This document shows positions 26-61,392 of a DNA stretch of 64,000 nucleotides, in pieces. The DNA is taken from IMG/VR virus record IMGVR_UViG_3300030202_002193, positions 1 to 64,000 of that record; one strand, 5' to 3'. Under the pieces are notes generated by a model that saw nothing but the letters and a program-made list of their open reading frames with translations, did no database searches and was not told the origin of the DNA. The position numbers and the translations under genes are program-made. Every line of letters begins with the position of its first letter. Position 1 is the first letter of the stretch. This DNA comes from a virus.

Positions 26-766
26 ATGAAATTTGCAGTTGATAGTAAAGTAATATGTAGTGCGCTAGATGATATTCAAGGAAAAGGAAAGTACGGGGTC
101 TCTAACAGTAGTTTAGATGATTGCGTCTACCTAACTCTAGAAGGAAATAATCTAGAATTATGGAATGCTGATTCTACACTTTCGCTAACAATTGATTTGG
201 AAGTGAACGGAGAAGAAGATGGGGACTTTGTAATGAATGCAAAGATACTAACTACTTTCTTGAAGAAGTTTAGCGGGGATGCTACTTTCATAGGAGAAGA
301 TACTCTTACGGTTTCTTGCAATAGTCAAGAAGTAGTCTTACCTAGAATCGTTGCACATTCTAATATGAATGCAATTACTAGAATTAGAGGAATGTTAGAA
401 CATGTTTCCTATGAAGAAGAACCTGAAACATTGTTTATGTTTGGTCCTTCTAAATTCGAATCGGCATTTACTATTCATTCTGAAGATTTCAAAAAAACTA
501 TGAGTCTATGTGAATTAATTAAGAGTGGAGTGTACCGATTAGATTGTACTGAAGAAGTAAAGATTAGTAGTCAAACTTCTGCTTCTAATAAGTACATGGA
601 AACCATGACCGCTACAAATAAGATAGGGGAAGAGGCTACAGTAGAATGGTCGGGACCACTACACAAGTTCTTTGATGGAAAAATAAACTTCTATATTAAA
701 GATGAATTCCCTTTACTTTTAGTAGGAACAGATAGAAAGTTAATCCGTGCGCCGCATGTGAGTTGA
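26..766 (+). CDS. PCNA-like sliding clamp
   Basis: Probable DNA-polymerase processivity clamp: a ring that tethers the polymerase, ligase and nucleases to DNA. At 246 residues it has the usual archaeal/eukaryal PCNA length. It is beta-rich and acidic with no enzyme motifs, has FVMNAKILTTFLKKF in the first domain, and ends with the PCNA-like EFPLLLVGTDRKLIRAP. The ATG has GAGGG eight bases upstream. It heads the visible part of the plus-strand replication operon, and the polymerase gene starts at its stop codon. No clamp-loader gene lies in this window, so loading would need a host or off-window factor. The call rests on length, fold-level pattern and position beside a family-B polymerase. Confidence 0.82.
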   Translation: MKFAVDSKVICSALDDIQGKGKYGVSNSSLDDCVYLTLEGNNLELWNADSTLSLTIDLEVNGEEDGDFVMNAKILTTFLKKFSGDATFIGEDTLTVSCNSQEVVLPRIVAHSNMNAITRIRGMLEHVSYEEEPETLFMFGPSKFESAFTIHSEDFKKTMSLCELIKSGVYRLDCTEEVKISSQTSASNKYMETMTATNKIGEEATVEWSGPLHKFFDGKINFYIKDEFPLLLVGTDRKLIRAPHVS

Positions 767-35760: not shown

Positions 35761-36936
35761 TCAATTTCCAGCAAGCCTGTTCAAGTCGGCCCAACTCATG
35801 TTAGCAACATCATCCATTGACGGAATTGCCACGGATGGTGCAGTTTTGGATTTGAGAATTTCAGATGTTTCCGAAGAAAATGACTTTCTCAATTCAGCCA
35901 ATTCTTCTTTAAGTGCGCTAACTTCAGACTTTGCATCATAGTTAGCCTTGGAAATAATAGTTTCTCTTTCTGAAACTTCAGACTTAAATCTGTTAGCGAA
36001 AGTCTTTTCTAAGTTTCCTAGAGCAATCTTTTCTAGTTGTTCTGCTTTGTATTCTGAATATGCTTTCTCGATTACATCAGGAGAAAGGTTTAGTGAAGTA
36101 ATTTCACCGTTGTCAAAGGCCTTAATGACCTTTGCTTGCTTTTCTCCTACTGGCTTGCCACCACTAATTACTACACGGTCAGCAGGTTCCCCTGTTTCTC
36201 CTTGTAGCGAAGTTTGTGCCTTGTATTCTACATCCATGTATTCTGAAGTCTCTACTTCAGCATCCATCAATTCTTCGTCCATAGCCGCCGCATTCATTTC
36301 TAAGTCTGCGTCTGCCGCAGGGGATTTCTCCTCTTCTTCTTTCCTTAGAGTATTGACTTCCTCTAATAGAGTGTCAAGTTCCTCTAATGCCTTTTCTAGT
36401 TTGTCGGTCATTTTTGTTCCCTCTTTTTCTTGTTTCAAAATGTCAAATTTCGCTTCAGGATTAATTCCTTTTTCGCATATGGTGACTTCGTGTAATTCTA
36501 GTTTGCTAATTTCGCTATATTCGCCTAATTCCGAATTTTGCTTCTTAACTTTCCGAAGTGCTTGTCCCCCTATGCTAAAAGACCTTAATGTTCCTTTGCG
36601 AATTCCCCTGTTTATTTCTTTTGCTTTTTCGATGTCATCTCTTAATTTTATTACTACAAAAAATCCCACATCATCTACTTCAGTTTTCCATATTTTTCCA
36701 TTTTTATCTCTATATGATTTTACTACTTCTCCTACTTGGACATTTGAATGGTTTGTCATTACATTTCTAAATTTTGCATTCTCCATGTATTTTTCTACTG
36801 CATCTTCTAGTGCTTTAAGTGTGATTAAATCATTTTGCTTATCTACGATTTCTATGCTTGCATATCCCCCAATCATTAAATCGTCTTGGCTTTTGAGAAT
36901 CAGGAAATCATTGTTTTGTATAACGGCAGTTTCCAT
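35761..36936 (-). CDS. Prohead protease fused to scaffold
   Basis: 391 residues from ATG 36936 (GAGGAAA upstream). N-terminal S78-type prohead protease: FRNVMTNHSNVQVGEV has the catalytic His (H63) and RSFSIGGQALRK the catalytic Ser (S121). From about residue 170 it becomes coiled coil (DKLEKALEELDTLLEEVNTL) with acidic and Ala/Glu-rich segments, a scaffold. The very C-terminus reads PSMDDVANMSWADLNRLAGN, with an MSW-x-D-L core like the N-terminal tag found on many late proteins. It would mature the capsid and be removed with the scaffold. Confidence 0.88.
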   Translation of the reverse strand: METAVIQNNDFLILKSQDDLMIGGYASIEIVDKQNDLITLKALEDAVEKYMENAKFRNVMTNHSNVQVGEVVKSYRDKNGKIWKTEVDDVGFFVVIKLRDDIEKAKEINRGIRKGTLRSFSIGGQALRKVKKQNSELGEYSEISKLELHEVTICEKGINPEAKFDILKQEKEGTKMTDKLEKALEELDTLLEEVNTLRKEEEEKSPAADADLEMNAAAMDEELMDAEVETSEYMDVEYKAQTSLQGETGEPADRVVISGGKPVGEKQAKVIKAFDNGEITSLNLSPDVIEKAYSEYKAEQLEKIALGNLEKTFANRFKSEVSERETIISKANYDAKSEVSALKEELAELRKSFSSETSEILKSKTAPSVAIPSMDDVANMSWADLNRLAGN

Positions 36937-36976
36937 TTTCCTCAACTCTTCGTTTTTTAATTAGGTATTTAATGCT

Positions 36977-52199: not shown

Positions 52200-54253
52200 G
52201 CTTGGACCTCCGTAACAATGTTCTTGTCTAGTAGTTTATTTAATAACTTCTTCGGAAGTTGGCCTTTACCGTCACCGACTCCCTTAGAGTTTATTATCTT
52301 GCGAAGATTCTCTTCAAAGAAATATATTAGGGCATTTCTATAGGCAAGTATTCTTCCCTGTATAGTTGATTCTAATTCATCAATTAGTTTTCTTTTATCC
52401 TTCGCCTTATCTATCCTCTCATAGAACCCTAAAACAGAATCACTTCCAGTACTTCCTAGTAAAGAATCTAACTTAGCAAAAAATGGAATTAGTTTTTTAG
52501 GACTTAGTGAAGATAATGTAAGGGAGCCTCCTAGGGGTTCTCTAGCCGTTTTTACTAGAGGATAAGAAAGCATTAGTTGTCTAAACCCTGTCTCTGATAA
52601 TAAAGAAGCAACAGATGAAGAAATCTCAAGACGAGTCAATTCTTTTTCCGGTAAATTACCTTTTAAGTTACTAAGTAAGTCTTTAATTTCAGACGGCACA
52701 AACTCTTCTATTTCTCCATCCTCTTCTCCGACTATTTTGAATCTTCTAAGTGAGCCTATCATGACTTCTTCGAAATCTATAGTAGTTTTATCCTCTAAAA
52801 TATCTCCCACTAATAATTCCTTAACTCCTATATTTTCTATTGCCTCGTCTAATACTCTTTTCATTTTAGGAGATACAGTAGTAGACATCTCTTCCGCATT
52901 CGCTTCACTTATATCTTCTATATCTACTTGTTTCATGAACCATCTCTTGAAAGGTTCCGGTTGTTCAGGAACTTCCTCAGAATCCAAATCAATTTCTATT
53001 CCGAATAAAGGAGTGGAAACTTTTCCAGATTCTTCATTGAATACTTTCATAGCATCTTCTAATAGTAAAGGCCTTAATTTACCAGCATCAATAATCTCCA
53101 ACTTTTTAGTTTGTGTCAATAAAGTATCGAACCAATTCGGTCCATCAATGGCAGTAAGTAATAGGCTCAAATAGGGGTTTGTTCGTAAACTCCCCCCTGC
53201 TTTTGTAGGGAATACTAAGTCTTGTACCAAAGAAGAAGATAGGGTAATTTCTTCTCCTCTTTCTGTAATTTTCATATCTACTCCCTTTGGAATAAATATA
53301 GAAGACTTGACACCTTTGGTTTTACTAACAGTTTCTATAAATTCTGTAAGCATTCGGTTATCAAATTGATTTACTTCATAGAATTTAGCATCAGGTATGG
53401 TTAATTTTCTACTAACTCCGGCAGATTCTATTGTTGGTACATATGATTTAATTTCTACTAAAATAGGGTTCAGAATCTCTTTGAATTGTCTACCATCTGT
53501 TATTGCTGAAAGTCTTCTAAATTCCTCGGCATAGGTTCTGAGAGAAGTAGGTTTCATCCTACCCATACTGCCTTCGCCGGTAAAATCTATATTTCTGTCT
53601 TCATCTAAGAAGAAAGAGTTCCAATTTTTCATCCATTCTCCTACTGTTAGATTAGGATAGTGGATTACCCAAGACCGTTCCTTAATTCCTAGCCAAAGTA
53701 CTTTTCCTTGGATAATTTTAGCAAATTTTTCTAAAAGTTTCTTAGAAGGGTTTCCAGCCTTAAAATATAATATGCTACCCTTGTCTATTTTCTGCAAATC
53801 TCTCTGCAATTGCCGTAAATCTTCATCTCGCATTATTTTAGGGTATTTTTGCGCCAATTTCAAAAATTCGTCGATTTTATCGGTATTTCCGCCCTCTTTT
53901 ATCTCTTGAGCGAGAGTATTCAGTTTTACTCTAGGACTATCCGCACTTTGTCTCTTTTTTGTGCCATATCTTTCTACAAGTAGGTCCATTTTTTGCTTCA
54001 TTGGCGCAATATCCATGTTTTCCCTGAATCTTGGAGTAAATTCTCTAACAAATCCGTCCTTATCTTTAGAATATTTATCCAATGCTTCGATTAATTTGTT
54101 AAAATCTCTTCTTTTTTGGTTTTCTGTAGGAGAATCTCGCATATCATCAAGAATTGGCAGTTGAGTTTCTAAAATATCTAAAGAAAATGCGGGAGAAAGC
54201 ATCCCTTGGACTAAATCTATGGCAGTTTGCCTCTTCAATAACTCGGTCCACAT
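52196..54253 (-). CDS. Tagged 685-residue late protein (MWTELLKRQ)
   Basis: Starts MWTELLKRQTAIDLVQGML, a tag-type opening on an otherwise long protein with no recognised family. Mixed alpha/beta, with charged helices (RDFNKLIEALDKYSKDKDGF; GSLRRFKIVGEEDGEIEEFV). Overlaps the 766-residue gene start by four bases (ATGA). Being tagged makes it an outlier in size among the tagged set, which is otherwise small proteins. Its role is unknown. Confidence 0.55.
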   Translation of the reverse strand: MWTELLKRQTAIDLVQGMLSPAFSLDILETQLPILDDMRDSPTENQKRRDFNKLIEALDKYSKDKDGFVREFTPRFRENMDIAPMKQKMDLLVERYGTKKRQSADSPRVKLNTLAQEIKEGGNTDKIDEFLKLAQKYPKIMRDEDLRQLQRDLQKIDKGSILYFKAGNPSKKLLEKFAKIIQGKVLWLGIKERSWVIHYPNLTVGEWMKNWNSFFLDEDRNIDFTGEGSMGRMKPTSLRTYAEEFRRLSAITDGRQFKEILNPILVEIKSYVPTIESAGVSRKLTIPDAKFYEVNQFDNRMLTEFIETVSKTKGVKSSIFIPKGVDMKITERGEEITLSSSLVQDLVFPTKAGGSLRTNPYLSLLLTAIDGPNWFDTLLTQTKKLEIIDAGKLRPLLLEDAMKVFNEESGKVSTPLFGIEIDLDSEEVPEQPEPFKRWFMKQVDIEDISEANAEEMSTTVSPKMKRVLDEAIENIGVKELLVGDILEDKTTIDFEEVMIGSLRRFKIVGEEDGEIEEFVPSEIKDLLSNLKGNLPEKELTRLEISSSVASLLSETGFRQLMLSYPLVKTAREPLGGSLTLSSLSPKKLIPFFAKLDSLLGSTGSDSVLGFYERIDKAKDKRKLIDELESTIQGRILAYRNALIYFFEENLRKIINSKGVGDGKGQLPKKLLNKLLDKNIVTEVQA

Positions 54254-56055: not shown

Positions 56056-57381
56056 TCACGCCTGTTCAATTAAATGAATTGTATATTTAGCCACCTGTTC
56101 TAGTTGAGGTTCAGTTAAAAGGTTAATATCTTCTGTTCTATTAGGATGAACCCCACCTCTTGTTGTAGGCCTATCATATTTCATAACAAGTTTTTCTATT
56201 TCTCTACTTATACTTCCTATTTTAGCCCCTCGGCTAAATTGGTGTAGTCTAGATAATTTTGCAGACAACTCTATACTTTTACCCCTATTAACCAAATTTT
56301 GCATATAGGGTCGTAGTTGTTTTGCAATTGCTATAGGTAAATCATATTCTACTAACATTGCCAGCCATTGAGGATAATTCTCTGTACGCTTTACAATATC
56401 TAGCCAAGATTTAGCAACCGGTACTCCTTCCTTTCTAGGTCTTTTATCTACGACCTTACCATGAATGTAGAATCCACCGACCTTCTTCTTAGTGGAAGCG
56501 AGATACGCCCTTTCTACAATGGCAGGTGAAACCTTAACAGTAAATTCCTCTACATCTCCAGTCACTTCTTCTTCAGAAAATCCACTCAATCTTCTAACTA
56601 TTGCTTCTTCTGCTTCACCAGTCACGCCAAACTTTTGACTTGCCAATTTTCCAGCAATTGCCTTAGCATTAATTACTCCCTCTTTAACTAAAGCCGGAGT
56701 TAATTGGCTTTCTAAGAATTGCTTAACCTGAGACAACTTATACAATTCTTTAGGATTAGAAACTCTAGTAATTTCAAATGTAATATCTGCCTCTTCTAAC
56801 TCTTTAAGTGCATCTTCTAAAATATATTTCAATCCTTTTGGACTCTCTTTAGAATATACTACTTGATGAGGAGGAGGAGTAGGGGGGTTGTTTACATCAT
56901 AACTATACCAAGACTTAGGAACTGGGGTGTCGCCCTTAAACTTCTTACTATATTTTACAAACTCCGCAGTTTTCCAATGCCCGTAAACTTTTCTCTTACC
57001 TATGTTTTTTCCTGATTTGTCATATATGTTGATGTGATATGGTATCATGGCAGGGTCAGCCTTAGTACCTTTAGCCGCATCAATAAATTTCAAATATGCT
57101 TTAAGATAATCTATTTCTTTTGTTCCTATGAAATCATCATAGTCCATAATTTCCATAAGTCTTGGCAAATGGTCTCGATGGCCTCTAGAAGCACCTTCGA
57201 TTGTTTCCATTCCAGTTCGTCTTGTGACAGTGTTGGAGGACTTAATTCCGTGTCGTAGAATAAAATCTACTCCTTCTAATTCCTTCCATTCCTGAAACTC
57301 TTTGAAAAAATTAGTAGACTTCAATTCCTGTTGAGCAGTATTGCCATTCTTAGTCTTAGTCTTTTTCTTCATCTTTGGCAT
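56056..57381 (-). CDS. 441-residue late protein with internal SWLDIVKR
   Basis: Lys-rich N-terminus (MPKMKKKTKTKNGNTAQQEL), then mixed alpha/beta. At about residue 325 the run VPVAKSWLDIVKRTENYPQW matches the core of the late tag inside a large protein. Other segments: YDDFIGTKEIDYLKAYLKFI; HQFSRGAKIGSISREIEKLV. No known family. Overlaps the next tagged gene's stop and lies upstream of the terminase-like genes. Confidence 0.5.
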   Translation of the reverse strand: MPKMKKKTKTKNGNTAQQELKSTNFFKEFQEWKELEGVDFILRHGIKSSNTVTRRTGMETIEGASRGHRDHLPRLMEIMDYDDFIGTKEIDYLKAYLKFIDAAKGTKADPAMIPYHINIYDKSGKNIGKRKVYGHWKTAEFVKYSKKFKGDTPVPKSWYSYDVNNPPTPPPHQVVYSKESPKGLKYILEDALKELEEADITFEITRVSNPKELYKLSQVKQFLESQLTPALVKEGVINAKAIAGKLASQKFGVTGEAEEAIVRRLSGFSEEEVTGDVEEFTVKVSPAIVERAYLASTKKKVGGFYIHGKVVDKRPRKEGVPVAKSWLDIVKRTENYPQWLAMLVEYDLPIAIAKQLRPYMQNLVNRGKSIELSAKLSRLHQFSRGAKIGSISREIEKLVMKYDRPTTRGGVHPNRTEDINLLTEPQLEQVAKYTIHLIEQA

Positions 57382-57721
57382 TTTTATTACCTCCTATTCT
57401 GCCTTCACTAAAAAGAGGTTTATGAGCCGCACTACTTGTAGTTACCGTTCCAGCAACCTTTTCCATTTCTCCATTCAAAGAATCTAAAATTGTAGGGAGT
57501 ACTGATTGTAGGTCGTAGACATTCGTATTAAAATCGCCATAATTTACCCTATATGCCGAACCGCCCCTTCTCTTAACTGTGATTTTTCCCCTATCAGAAT
57601 CCAAAGTAAAATTGTCCCCTGCCCTACTGCTACCACCTGAAATCTCCCCACCGATTATATTTTGAATGTTTTGTAGAAACATCCTAGGGGTCATCATCTT
57701 TAATACATTTTTCCAAGTCAT
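57356..57721 (-). CDS. Tagged Gly/Ser-rich protein (MTWKNVLKM)
   Basis: 121 residues: tag MTWKNVLKMMTPRMFLQNIQ, then a Gly/Ser/Arg-rich region (GGEISGGSSRAGDNFTLDSD) and a strand-rich middle (KITVKRRGGSAYRVNYGDFN), charged end. It may be a small internal or decoration protein. No family recognised. Confidence 0.55.
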   Translation of the reverse strand: MTWKNVLKMMTPRMFLQNIQNIIGGEISGGSSRAGDNFTLDSDRGKITVKRRGGSAYRVNYGDFNTNVYDLQSVLPTILDSLNGEMEKVAGTVTTSSAAHKPLFSEGRIGGNKNAKDEEKD

Positions 57722-58144: not shown

Positions 58145-58402
58145 TTAATCCCTCGATGTAAATGCCCTTCCGCTTCCCATTCTAGGAGGGACTTTTTTAT
58201 TTGCATTCCTCGTCCTTTCAATTAAGGGGTGAGTTTTTAATTCCTTTTTAGGAACAGGAGGAGTAGCGTCTGCATGTTCTTCTCTCTGATGCCCAACCAA
58301 TTCTTTTAGAGAACTGTATTTCTTACCACAAATAGAACAAACTTCTTTTTTGTGGGCATCAGATGGAATATATCCTATTTTAACAATATCTTTCCATGAC
58401 AT
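58145..58402 (-). CDS. Tagged C2H2 zinc-finger protein (MSWKDIVKI)
   Basis: 85 residues from ATG 58402: tag MSWKDIVKIGYIPSDAH, then a classical C2H2 finger (CSICGKKYSSLKELVGHQRE then EH) and a basic Pro/Arg tail. Eukaryote-like C2H2 fingers are known in archaeal viruses. Probably nucleic-acid binding. Confidence 0.65.
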   Translation of the reverse strand: MSWKDIVKIGYIPSDAHKKEVCSICGKKYSSLKELVGHQREEHADATPPVPKKELKTHPLIERTRNANKKVPPRMGSGRAFTSRD

Positions 58403-58407
58403 ATTAA

Positions 58408-58827
58408 TCACCAACTAATATCTACGCTCTTGATATAGAATTCACCATCTTTTCGCCCTATCTCAATATCAGCCTCCGGCATGATATACGAACCCATACT
58501 CACTTTATCCAATTTTTCCACTTCTATATTTTCTGAAGTTTTCAATTCTAAATCTAAAGCCAATTCTTCTACTTCTTCTCCAATATCTTCAATAGAAGAA
58601 ATACTAACAACAACAGATTGCACACTAGGTTGATTCAATTCCAAACCATCTCCATCAACTTCAATACTCATACTCCAATTAACTGTTACACTATACCAAT
58701 CAATATCAATATCAATATCAGAACCACTTCCTCTATAAGTAACCATAGTATTGTGATTTCTATTAGGTTTTACAGTAGTTTCAAAGGTATAACTCTCTAA
58801 AGCACCCTTCAGTATATCTTTCCACAT
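58408..58827 (-). CDS. Tagged beta-rich protein (MWKDILKGA)
   Basis: 139 residues from ATG 58827: tag MWKDILKGALES, then a beta-rich body (YTFETTVKPNRNHNTMVTYR; IDIDWYSVTVNWSMSIEVDG) and an acidic end with PEADIEIGRKDGEFYIKSVD. Repetitive Ile/Asp codons around 58680-58720. No family recognised. Confidence 0.6.
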   Translation of the reverse strand: MWKDILKGALESYTFETTVKPNRNHNTMVTYRGSGSDIDIDIDWYSVTVNWSMSIEVDGDGLELNQPSVQSVVVSISSIEDIGEEVEELALDLELKTSENIEVEKLDKVSMGSYIMPEADIEIGRKDGEFYIKSVDISW

Positions 58828-58856: not shown

Positions 58857-59111
58857 TCAAGTCCTCGAAAGGACATCTGCCTCTCCAGCAGATTCAGAAA
58901 TATCCTTTATCATTTCTTCTGCAATATCACTTATTGCTAAAAGAACCGCATCCTCCGCACTAACGGAATGCTCAAATTGCCTTTCCATCATCTTTGCATC
59001 TTCACCCGCTTTATCTGATAAATCGCTCATAAGATTTCTTATTTCGCTTTCTAATGCTTGTCTAAGAGTACTAGTCATAGTGTAGCGTTTTTTAATCGTA
59101 TCTTTCCACAT
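58857..59111 (-). CDS. Tagged helical protein (MWKDTIKKR)
   Basis: 84 residues from ATG 59111: tag MWKDTIKKRYTMTSTLRQAL, then helices (EIRNLMSDLSDKAGEDAKMM; AVLLAISDIAEEMIKDISES). A longer frame exists, but its N-terminal part overlaps the next gene and lacks a fit leader (GGGGAATTTTT precedes this ATG). No family recognised. Confidence 0.6.
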   Translation of the reverse strand: MWKDTIKKRYTMTSTLRQALESEIRNLMSDLSDKAGEDAKMMERQFEHSVSAEDAVLLAISDIAEEMIKDISESAGEADVLSRT

Positions 59112-59133: not shown

Positions 59134-59346
59134 TCAGTAGCCTCGTATATTCTGCAAAATATCAGATAATTTATCAATACAATAGGCCAGCATTTTTGGC
59201 TTTTCAAGCGCATGTCTATCTTCAGCCTTATCACTGATTTCATTACACAAATCTTGTATTTCCTCAACCATACTTTCAACGGTGTCCGTTGGGGCATAGT
59301 TTCTATATTCGTCATCTTCTTTCTTTATCTCGTTTTTCCAACTCAT
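59134..59346 (-). CDS. Tagged small helical protein (MSWKNEIKKED)
   Basis: 70 residues from ATG 59346: tag MSWKNEIKKEDDEYRNYAPT, then VEEIQDLCNEISDKAEDRHA. Similar in layout to the protein ending 58857 (DLSDKAGED there, EISDKAEDR here), so possibly paralogous. The upstream 20 codons of the long frame overlap the 18-codon gene and are probably not used. Confidence 0.6.
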   Translation of the reverse strand: MSWKNEIKKEDDEYRNYAPTDTVESMVEEIQDLCNEISDKAEDRHALEKPKMLAYCIDKLSDILQNIRGY

Positions 59347-59351
59347 TTTTC

Positions 59352-59408
59352 TCACCAAAATTTTCCGTAATTTTTTTTCAATTCTTCTTTTAGTATATCT
59401 TTCCACAT
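59352..59408 (-). CDS. 18-codon gene consisting of the tag: MWKDILKEELKKNYGKFW
   Basis: Minus-strand frame ATG TGG AAA GAT ATA CTA AAA GAA GAA TTG, stop TGA at 59354-59352. Its sequence is almost only the late tag MWKDILKEE plus LKKNYGKFW. Upstream GGAGATTTTTAC is the same type of leader (GGAG, 5-8 bases spacing) as the tagged genes. It overlaps no other convincing gene and is the first coding frame after the right-hand intergenic region. Either a free competitor/anchor peptide or a leader. Needs proteomic proof. Confidence 0.5.
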   Translation of the reverse strand: MWKDILKEELKKNYGKFW

Positions 59409-59755
59409 GTAAAAATCTCCAAAAATTTCCCGTAATTTGTTCGTCACTAGCGCAATTTTTCTTTTTTTTAATTTACTATTCCCAGAATAAGGTTTTTTAA
59501 TTTACTTTTTTATTTTATTATATTTTAATTTGCGATATTTTCTTGTTTTTGGTATTGTTGCAAACTTTTAATTTGAATCATTTCGCATAGCGTTTGACTT
59601 CTTGATGTTAAGAGGCTAAAGTAACATGGTATTTAGTATTTATTAGATAATAAGGGTGCAAAAGTCTAATTGGAGGGATTAAAGAATCGTTTGTTAAAAA
59701 AAAGATTTTTGATACAAAGCCATATGGTTGTGCTTTGTTAACGCCCCGAAGGGTA
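59409..59755. other. AT-rich intergenic region upstream of the late operon
   Basis: About 350 bases, no convincing gene. Contains a direct repeat TTTTTTAATTTACT (around 59468 and 59496), long T-runs and a TATA-rich segment, so it could hold the late promoter for the minus-strand genes starting at 59408. A CAAAGC...GCTTTG palindrome lies at 59715-59737 (listed separately). Confidence 0.4.
59715..59737. promoter_or_regulatory. Palindromic module copy 1 (box absent)
   Basis: CAAAGCCATATGGTTGTGCTTTG-type palindrome with a CATATG centre, the most degenerate of six copies. Unlike the others it has no TACCTTA box next to it on the minus-strand side. It lies just downstream of the stop of the 59756 gene and about 310 bases before the next minus-strand start. 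It could be an operator or a decayed copy. Confidence 0.55.
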
Positions 59756-60116: not shown

Positions 60117-60159
60117 TAAGTAAGGTACTATCAAAGCCTAGTACCATATGGTTGCTTTG
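60117..60159 (-). promoter_or_regulatory. Palindromic promoter module copy 2
   Basis: CAAAGCC...GTACCATATGGTT...GCTTTG palindrome (60132-60159) followed on the minus strand by TACCTTACTTATTT (from 60127), 33 bases before ATG 60094. The box position fits an archaeal TATA/BRE element centred about 25 bases from a start site that coincides with the ATG. The palindrome upstream could be a dimeric activator/repressor site. Confidence 0.7.
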
Positions 60160-60170
60160 TTTTACCCTAG

Positions 60171-60525: not shown

Positions 60526-60571
60526 TAAGTGAGGTAATATCAAAGCCTATTACCATATGGTACTGGCTTTG
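60526..60571 (-). promoter_or_regulatory. Palindromic promoter module copy 3
   Basis: CAAAGCC-TATTACCATATGGTACT-GGCTTTG (60541-60571) with TACCTCACTTAATT on the minus strand (from 60536), exactly 33 bases before ATG 60503. Same geometry as copy 2. Confidence 0.72.
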
Positions 60572-60804
60572 TAGAACCCTAAGATAAGAAATCGGGAACA
60601 GGGGCTATATTTCGCTGACAAAGGGATGCGCTCACTGAATAAGGAGTTAGTTACTTGATACTTTAACTAGTATTTCACAAGAGTCCAACTACCGTTTATT
60701 GCTGATTTTGCCACAACCGATGGTTACTTTATAGTCTTATTCCGTCATTCTCACCATGTCCCAAAGTTGCCTAGGATTTGCAATGGGGGTATTTCGTGGG
60801 TGGG
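60572..60804. other. Intergenic stretch between RNA terminator and module 3
   Basis: About 230 bases, no gene seen on either strand. Contains short inverted repeats only (for example AACC...GGTT near 60716). It lies downstream of the terminator at 60805 for minus-strand transcription and upstream of module 3. Confidence 0.4.
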
Positions 60805-61260: not shown

Positions 61261-61300
61261 TTAGTAAGGTAGACAAAGCCCTACCATATGGTAGGCTTTG
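61261..61300 (-). promoter_or_regulatory. Palindromic promoter module copy 4
   Basis: CAAAGCC-CTACCATATGGTAG-GCTTTG (61274-61300), the most symmetrical copy, followed on the minus strand by TACCTTACTAATAATT (from 61271). It faces the hairpin-rich stretch at 60805-61238 that has no intact gene. On the opposite side lies a series of terminator-like hairpins for the upstream unit. Confidence 0.7.
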
Positions 61301-61303
61301 TTA

Positions 61304-61392
61304 ATACCCTGTAAAGGGAGCCACCCCCTAGGTCCGAAGTCCTAGAGGGGGCAAATAGCACAAAATTGTGCTTACAACGGTTGGGAAAACCG
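61304..61392 (-). terminator. Cluster of hairpins between units
   Basis: Four inverted repeats in a row: CGGTT/AACCG near 61378-61392, GCACAA/TTGTGC (61358-61371), CCCCCTAGG/CCTAG-A-GGGGG (61324-61351), and CCCT/AGGG near 61306-61317. They lie between a small frame ending 61400 and palindromic module 4. They lack a T-run, so termination is inferred from position and stem strength. Confidence 0.5.

Follow-up and report, generated by a model that had tools for sequence, protein, structure and literature searches.

We found that the 18-codon open reading frame (ORF) at the start of the late block of this virus, hereafter the mini-ORF, is probably an emptied cassette, lying at a slot where cargo turns over. 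This reading draws on its leader-tag-leader structure, its position, its absence in relatives, the turnover of cargo, and one independent deletion elsewhere that joins a tag to the end of a cargo. The window, by which we mean the whole stretch of DNA analyzed, covers the first 64,000 bases of a virus record 84,538 bases long; its late genes start at about 59.4 kb and are encoded on the minus strand. The window portal protein showed 29% identity to portals of haloarchaeal tailed viruses such as HVTV-1 and the terminase matched PHROG 38; judging from the portal alone, the virus is apparently archaeal.

Structure of the 18-codon ORF

The initial annotation described a gene of 18 codons that was essentially the tag alone, with a leader like those of the tagged genes and a stop just before the next of them. 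We confirmed the ATG, the TGA and the peptide MWKDILKEELKKNYGKFW on the minus strand (Table 1), and found 5 bases between the stop and the ATG at 59346. The tag itself accounts only for the first codons; from codon 10 through codon 18 and the stop (59381..59352), the frame translates the leader of the next gene. In the frame of the mini-ORF, TTGAAAAAAAATTACGGAAAATTTTGGTGA (59381-59352) reads L K K N Y G K F W stop, so that 30 of the 57 bases belong to that leader and the TGA falls within the GGTGA Shine-Dalgarno of gene 59346 (TGG TGA). A leader is followed by the tag, by two or three codons and then by a second leader, whose DNA, read in one accidental frame, sets the C-terminal half of the peptide. 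Another frame of the same downstream leader is open into gene 59346, indicating that the mini-ORF stop is incidental. The first 21 bases matched the tagged starts at 58827 and 49893 of the window with 2-3 mismatches, while none of 100 dinucleotide shuffles gave any match to the tag DNA at 3 mismatches or fewer. A Shine-Dalgarno, GGAG, lies 8 bases upstream of the ATG, and because both start and Shine-Dalgarno are intact the mini-ORF may plausibly be translated.

The likeness of the leaders proved to be partial. A leader with CAAATTACGGGAAATTTTTGGAGA / TTACGGGAAATTTTTGGAGA precedes the mini-ORF and the next three tagged genes (59346, 59111 and 58827), but none of the other tagged genes of the window, several of which carry AGGAGGAATTACA instead. 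Near-identical copies of the gene-59346 leader are non-coding in the relatives L005 and L006 and elsewhere between window genes. Leaders of the same type at L005 4739 and window 58827 contain TTGAAAAAAA, whose TGA serves as the stop codon of the preceding gene. The tag of the mini-ORF is not in frame with this TGA, which is what an unselected junction would show. We detected no stem-loop in the mini-gene leader and no RNA structure beyond that of shuffled sequences (z +0.77), and an RNA attenuator at this site was accordingly rejected.

Table 1. Features at and around the start of the late block, with the prohead protease of the same window
Feature	Position	Strand	Remarks
18-codon ORF MWKDILKEELKKNYGKFW + stop	59352..59408	minus	ATG at 59408, TGA ending at 59352
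Tag proper, MWKDILK	59388..59408	minus	43 bases from block-start element
Leader of gene 59346 (TTGAAAAAAAATTACGGAAAATTTTGGTGAGAAAA)	59347..59381	minus	source of the mini-ORF stop and of the 9 sense codons before it; contains the GGTGA Shine-Dalgarno
Block-start element GCTAGTGACGAACAAATTAC	59432..59451	minus	consensus GCAAGTGCCAAANAAATTNC, kept at 27 late-block starts in IMG/VR
Conserved TTATTCTGGGAATA	59477..59490	minus	about 30 bases upstream of block-start element; promoter-like by position
First full-length tagged gene, MSWKNEIKKEDDEY..., 70 aa	59134..59346	minus	orthologs L109 (72% identity), L165 (68%)
Second full-length tagged gene, MWKDTIKKRY..., 84 aa	58857..59111	minus	mini-ORF-type leader
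Third tagged gene, MWKDILKGAL..., 139 aa	58408..58827	minus	orthologs L005, L006 (about 62%)
Prohead protease (Peptidase_S78), untagged	35761..36945	minus	candidate partner of capsid-targeting tag

The N-terminal tag and its cargo

The tag is an N-terminal heptad, M[S/T]W[K/E/Q][D/N]ILK, and its conservation ends after the ILK lysine. About 17 ORFs of the window start with M(x)W[KEQ][DN]ILK or a close variant. Searching viral contigs with a degenerate DNA pattern, we collected at least 435 distinct complete tagged ORFs with a Shine-Dalgarno-like stretch from uncultivated tailed viruses, and the fetched loci held many each. With the first ten residues removed, the cargo of these 435 formed 245 clusters, 192 of them singletons; because some of the loci counted were selected with the tag pattern itself, these numbers show breadth, not frequency.

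All six Leu codons are used for the conserved Leu of the tag and three codons for the Ile, and the Asp and Lys codons vary too. The Leu and Ile spread holds for the window and three relatives alone, loci that were chosen without the tag pattern. Judged from these sequences, selection is on the tag peptide, since synonymous codons vary at its conserved sites. We rejected the tag as a DNA-level feature only (a translation enhancer or recombination site) because the synonymous codons vary freely. The initial annotation had also taken the mini-gene to show that the tag is not a by-product of a larger conserved fold. The tag is indeed independent of any fold, given the number of cargo clusters that carry it, but the mini-gene adds no evidence on this point because it looks like a deletion product.

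Among 84,980 cellular genomes, one per species, there were 33 scattered matches to the tag pattern, with at most one tagged ORF per locus, which is the level of chance. The tag as a cellular feature was rejected, these matches being isolated and as expected by chance. The literature searched gave no published mention of the tag peptide, the only matches being text-recognition errors in papers of 1781-1809.

The S78 prohead protease (PF04586) was present in 24 of the 27 tagged viral records, and the same 24 hold the phrog_18178 portal. The tag is absent from the portal, the terminase, the protease and almost every other large late-block protein; one exception is a 685-aa protein at 54253 (MWTELLKR). 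PHROGs and Pfam recognised almost none of the cargo, the exceptions being a weak match to a C2H2 zinc finger at 58145-58402 and, in a relative, PAP2. The PAP2 phosphatase domain belongs to the tagged protein at L044 9366-10379, which is among the few tagged cargoes with a recognisable activity.

Two further sequence features were seen in tagged proteins. A second motif, AGAVTTSSxAxLF..., is common to several otherwise different tagged proteins (the C-terminus of window 57356-57721, L017 7396, L078 6136, L021 9697 and L034 5103-6398) and is perhaps another sorting or processing signal. An acidic, EF-hand-like stretch resembling DLDGDGxxxEPM occurs in many tagged proteins, including L105 2428-3255 and a 58-member cargo cluster. 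The 139-aa protein at 58408-58827 lacks five tag-region residues of its orthologs at L005 4739 and L006 4591 (MWKDILKGAL vs MWKRLLKNQVLKGTI), so a small deletion may have recreated the tag. An AlphaFold model of this protein had a mean pLDDT of 49 with three sequences only and was not used.

The block-start slot in related viruses

Aligned block starts have TTATTCTGGGAAT in common, plus GCAAGTGCCAAANAAATT about 30 bases further. The arrangement of TTATTCTGGGAAT, then GCAAGTGCCAAANAAATTNC, then a tagged gene at a near-fixed distance is likely a late promoter or 5' leader common to many of these viruses. The first ORF after the element was a tagged gene in 23 of 27 viral contigs, with complete ones measuring 59-220 aa, and in relatives the first tagged gene starts mostly 42-55 bases away. 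The mini-ORF of the window begins 43 bases from the element, where a first tagged gene would be expected, whereas the first full gene begins at a distance of 105. The initial annotation had suggested searching the late-block starts of relatives for equivalent mini-genes; at the 27 conserved block starts we found none, and no viral contig with the element had a tag-only ORF there.

We identified relatives through orthologs of the neighbouring genes (L005, L006, L109 and L165) and compared the slot among them. The element leads straight to a 78-aa tagged gene in L006, and in L165 it is followed directly by the ortholog of gene 59346. In L109 that ortholog is separated from the element by a pair of complete tagged genes, of which the first, MTWKDILKEIYPKGEE..., has 99 aa. 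The leader of L005 is doubled as in the window, and its slot reads ATTATAGATTAGG, without a start codon. Among the window and these relatives the neighbouring tagged genes differ in cargo and are alike in leader and tag; the cargo of the 84-aa gene at 58857..59111 had no relative in the collected set. No close relative with the mini-ORF junction was present in the collections searched, and the nearest, L004 (82% in a 441-aa protein), ends before the slot. The block-start leader had no match in genome_contigs, nor the region in the phages collection.

The spaces between the small genes adjoining the late block contain a repeated element in which AAAGCC and GGCTTTG flank a CCATATGG core. It lies at about 59710-59740, 60130-60165, 60545-60575 and 61275-61310 of the window, at about 3515-3540 of L005 and at about 3720-3750 of L006.

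Very short tagged ORFs in other viruses

Only 3 of 431 complete tagged ORFs were shorter than 30 codons, namely the mini-ORF, one in L014 and one of 29 aa in L064. L014 is an unrelated tagged virus, and its ORF (580..654) has 24 codons, MSWKNILKDAKKVTMKFHPKEELQ. In it MSWKNILK is fused in frame to DAKKVTMKFHP..., a stretch of 16 codons that ends a tagged protein of 89 aa. Complete versions of 87-89 aa, with KKDAKKV..KFHPE near the end, were found in five loci (L076, L096, L119, L008 and L107), and AAAGATGC stands at or near the tag-cargo join of L014. The L014 ORF is a case of cargo loss with the tag retained. We discarded a 21-aa match in L026 because it lacks a Shine-Dalgarno and lies within another open frame, out of register with it.

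Origin of the mini-ORF

As an emptied cassette, the mini-ORF would have arisen as follows. The late-block start would be a hypervariable slot at which units of leader, tag and cargo are gained and lost, and the first unit in the window virus would have kept its leader and tag while losing its cargo. Reading would then pass from the tag directly into the next unit's leader and end at the TGA of its Shine-Dalgarno, the resulting peptide being possibly a by-product without a selected role. We infer that a deletion of the L014 type also happened at the window slot, and that the peptide is without function. A gain of a leader-tag unit by duplication predicts the same structure as cargo loss. Against the emptied cassette stands the intact ORF with its good Shine-Dalgarno.

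The initial annotation had proposed a competitor, spacer or minimal binding element, if the gene is translated. A dedicated role of this kind finds no support, since none of the 27 block starts has an equivalent and the C-terminal half is set by leader DNA. A functional tag-only microprotein would occupy the tag receptor (scaffold, portal or protease) and tune the entry of tagged cargo into the capsid. It would fit the intact ATG, Shine-Dalgarno and tag, the position as first ORF of the late block, which makes good transcription likely, and the existence of two more very short tagged ORFs (L014, 24 aa; L064, 29 aa). We nevertheless consider it unlikely, since a conserved microprotein would be kept at the same place in relatives and none of the 27 block starts keeps it. 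In addition, the L005 slot is without a start codon, the C-terminal half is leader sequence, and the L014 ORF is explained as a truncated cargo gene. We likewise give little credence to the proposal that a cargo-free tag peptide is made, competes for the tag receptor and sets the packaged dose, which could hold equally for the L014 and L064 ORFs.

A regulatory upstream ORF or spacer would place terminating ribosomes on GGTGA and so couple translation of gene 59346 to the block leader. The stop does lie inside the Shine-Dalgarno of the next gene, 5 bases upstream of its ATG, and the TGG TGA ... ATG arrangement recurs at 58408/58402. Tight spacing is however general among genes of the late block and not peculiar to the mini-ORF, which moreover is not kept in relatives, and its leader RNA is no more structured than shuffles; coupling is thus improbable. 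The competitor and coupling readings retain this share of probability because the collections searched contained no close relative with the same junction in which selection could be measured.

With an assembly or sequencing artefact, the second leader would have been given the wrong number of bases in its GG/GGG run, on which the stop depends. The leader copy in the mini-ORF has ACGGAAAA where several others have ACGGGAAAA, and the neighbouring leader frame is open into gene 59346. The same leader site varies elsewhere, however (L006 4591 and window 59111), and an ORF fused through to the second tag was found nowhere else in the set, making this very unlikely. A chance ORF unrelated to the tag, of the kind that AT-rich DNA yields in number, has a negligible probability and is refuted by the shuffles together with the homology of the leader.

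Comparison with known systems

The nearest known analogue of the tag is the capsid-targeting sequence (CTS) that phage T4 carries on its internal proteins and on Alt, and we do not file the tag as a member of that class. By this analogy the tag might direct late proteins into the procapsid as the T4 CTS does, a proposal we regard as tentative and somewhat short of probable. The internal proteins of T4 are reportedly a highly diverse set in which only the CTS is conserved (PMC3012670; PMC5694885). The likeness lies in a short N-terminal sequence on many otherwise unrelated, variable late proteins in genomes that encode a prohead protease. One N-terminal sequence was found on several non-homologous proteins (435 tagged ORFs in 245 cargo clusters), synonymous variation at the Leu, Ile, Asp and Lys codons places the constraint on peptide and not on DNA, and PF04586 was found in 24 of 27 tagged records. 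On the other hand, no conserved L/I-x-E cleavage site ends the tag; the residue following ILK varies and is E in only 61 of 491 cases. The cleavage specificity of T4 need not hold for an S78 protease, the type found in the tagged viruses. The tag is also unrelated to the CTS in sequence, consists of a heptad W[KEQ][DN]ILK as opposed to a propeptide of 10-20 residues, and occurs on a far larger number of genes in each genome, with about 17 in the window.

Two other systems bear comparison. In the PeSL cassettes of T4-type phages and the pre-ORF repeat of halovirus HGTV-1, regulatory DNA has been suggested to drive gene shuffling (PMC3950731). These share with the window viruses a conserved DNA before many small variable genes, but the repeated unit here is leader plus coding tag and lies in the late block. 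A promoter and stem-loop precede each exchanged gene in PeSL cassettes, and the mini-gene leader showed no such fold (z as above). Gene remnants left by internal deletion resemble the mini-ORF in that the 5' end is kept, the body is lost and the frame reads into downstream sequence; they differ in that the kept 5' end of the mini-ORF is the common tag, so that the remnant could in principle still act.

The mini-gene, probably a scar, exposes how the tagged-gene system evolves: leader and tag are retained, their distance from a conserved late element stays the same, and cargo is exchanged or lost. The tag provides a testable rule predicting which uncharacterised proteins travel together, possibly inside the capsid.
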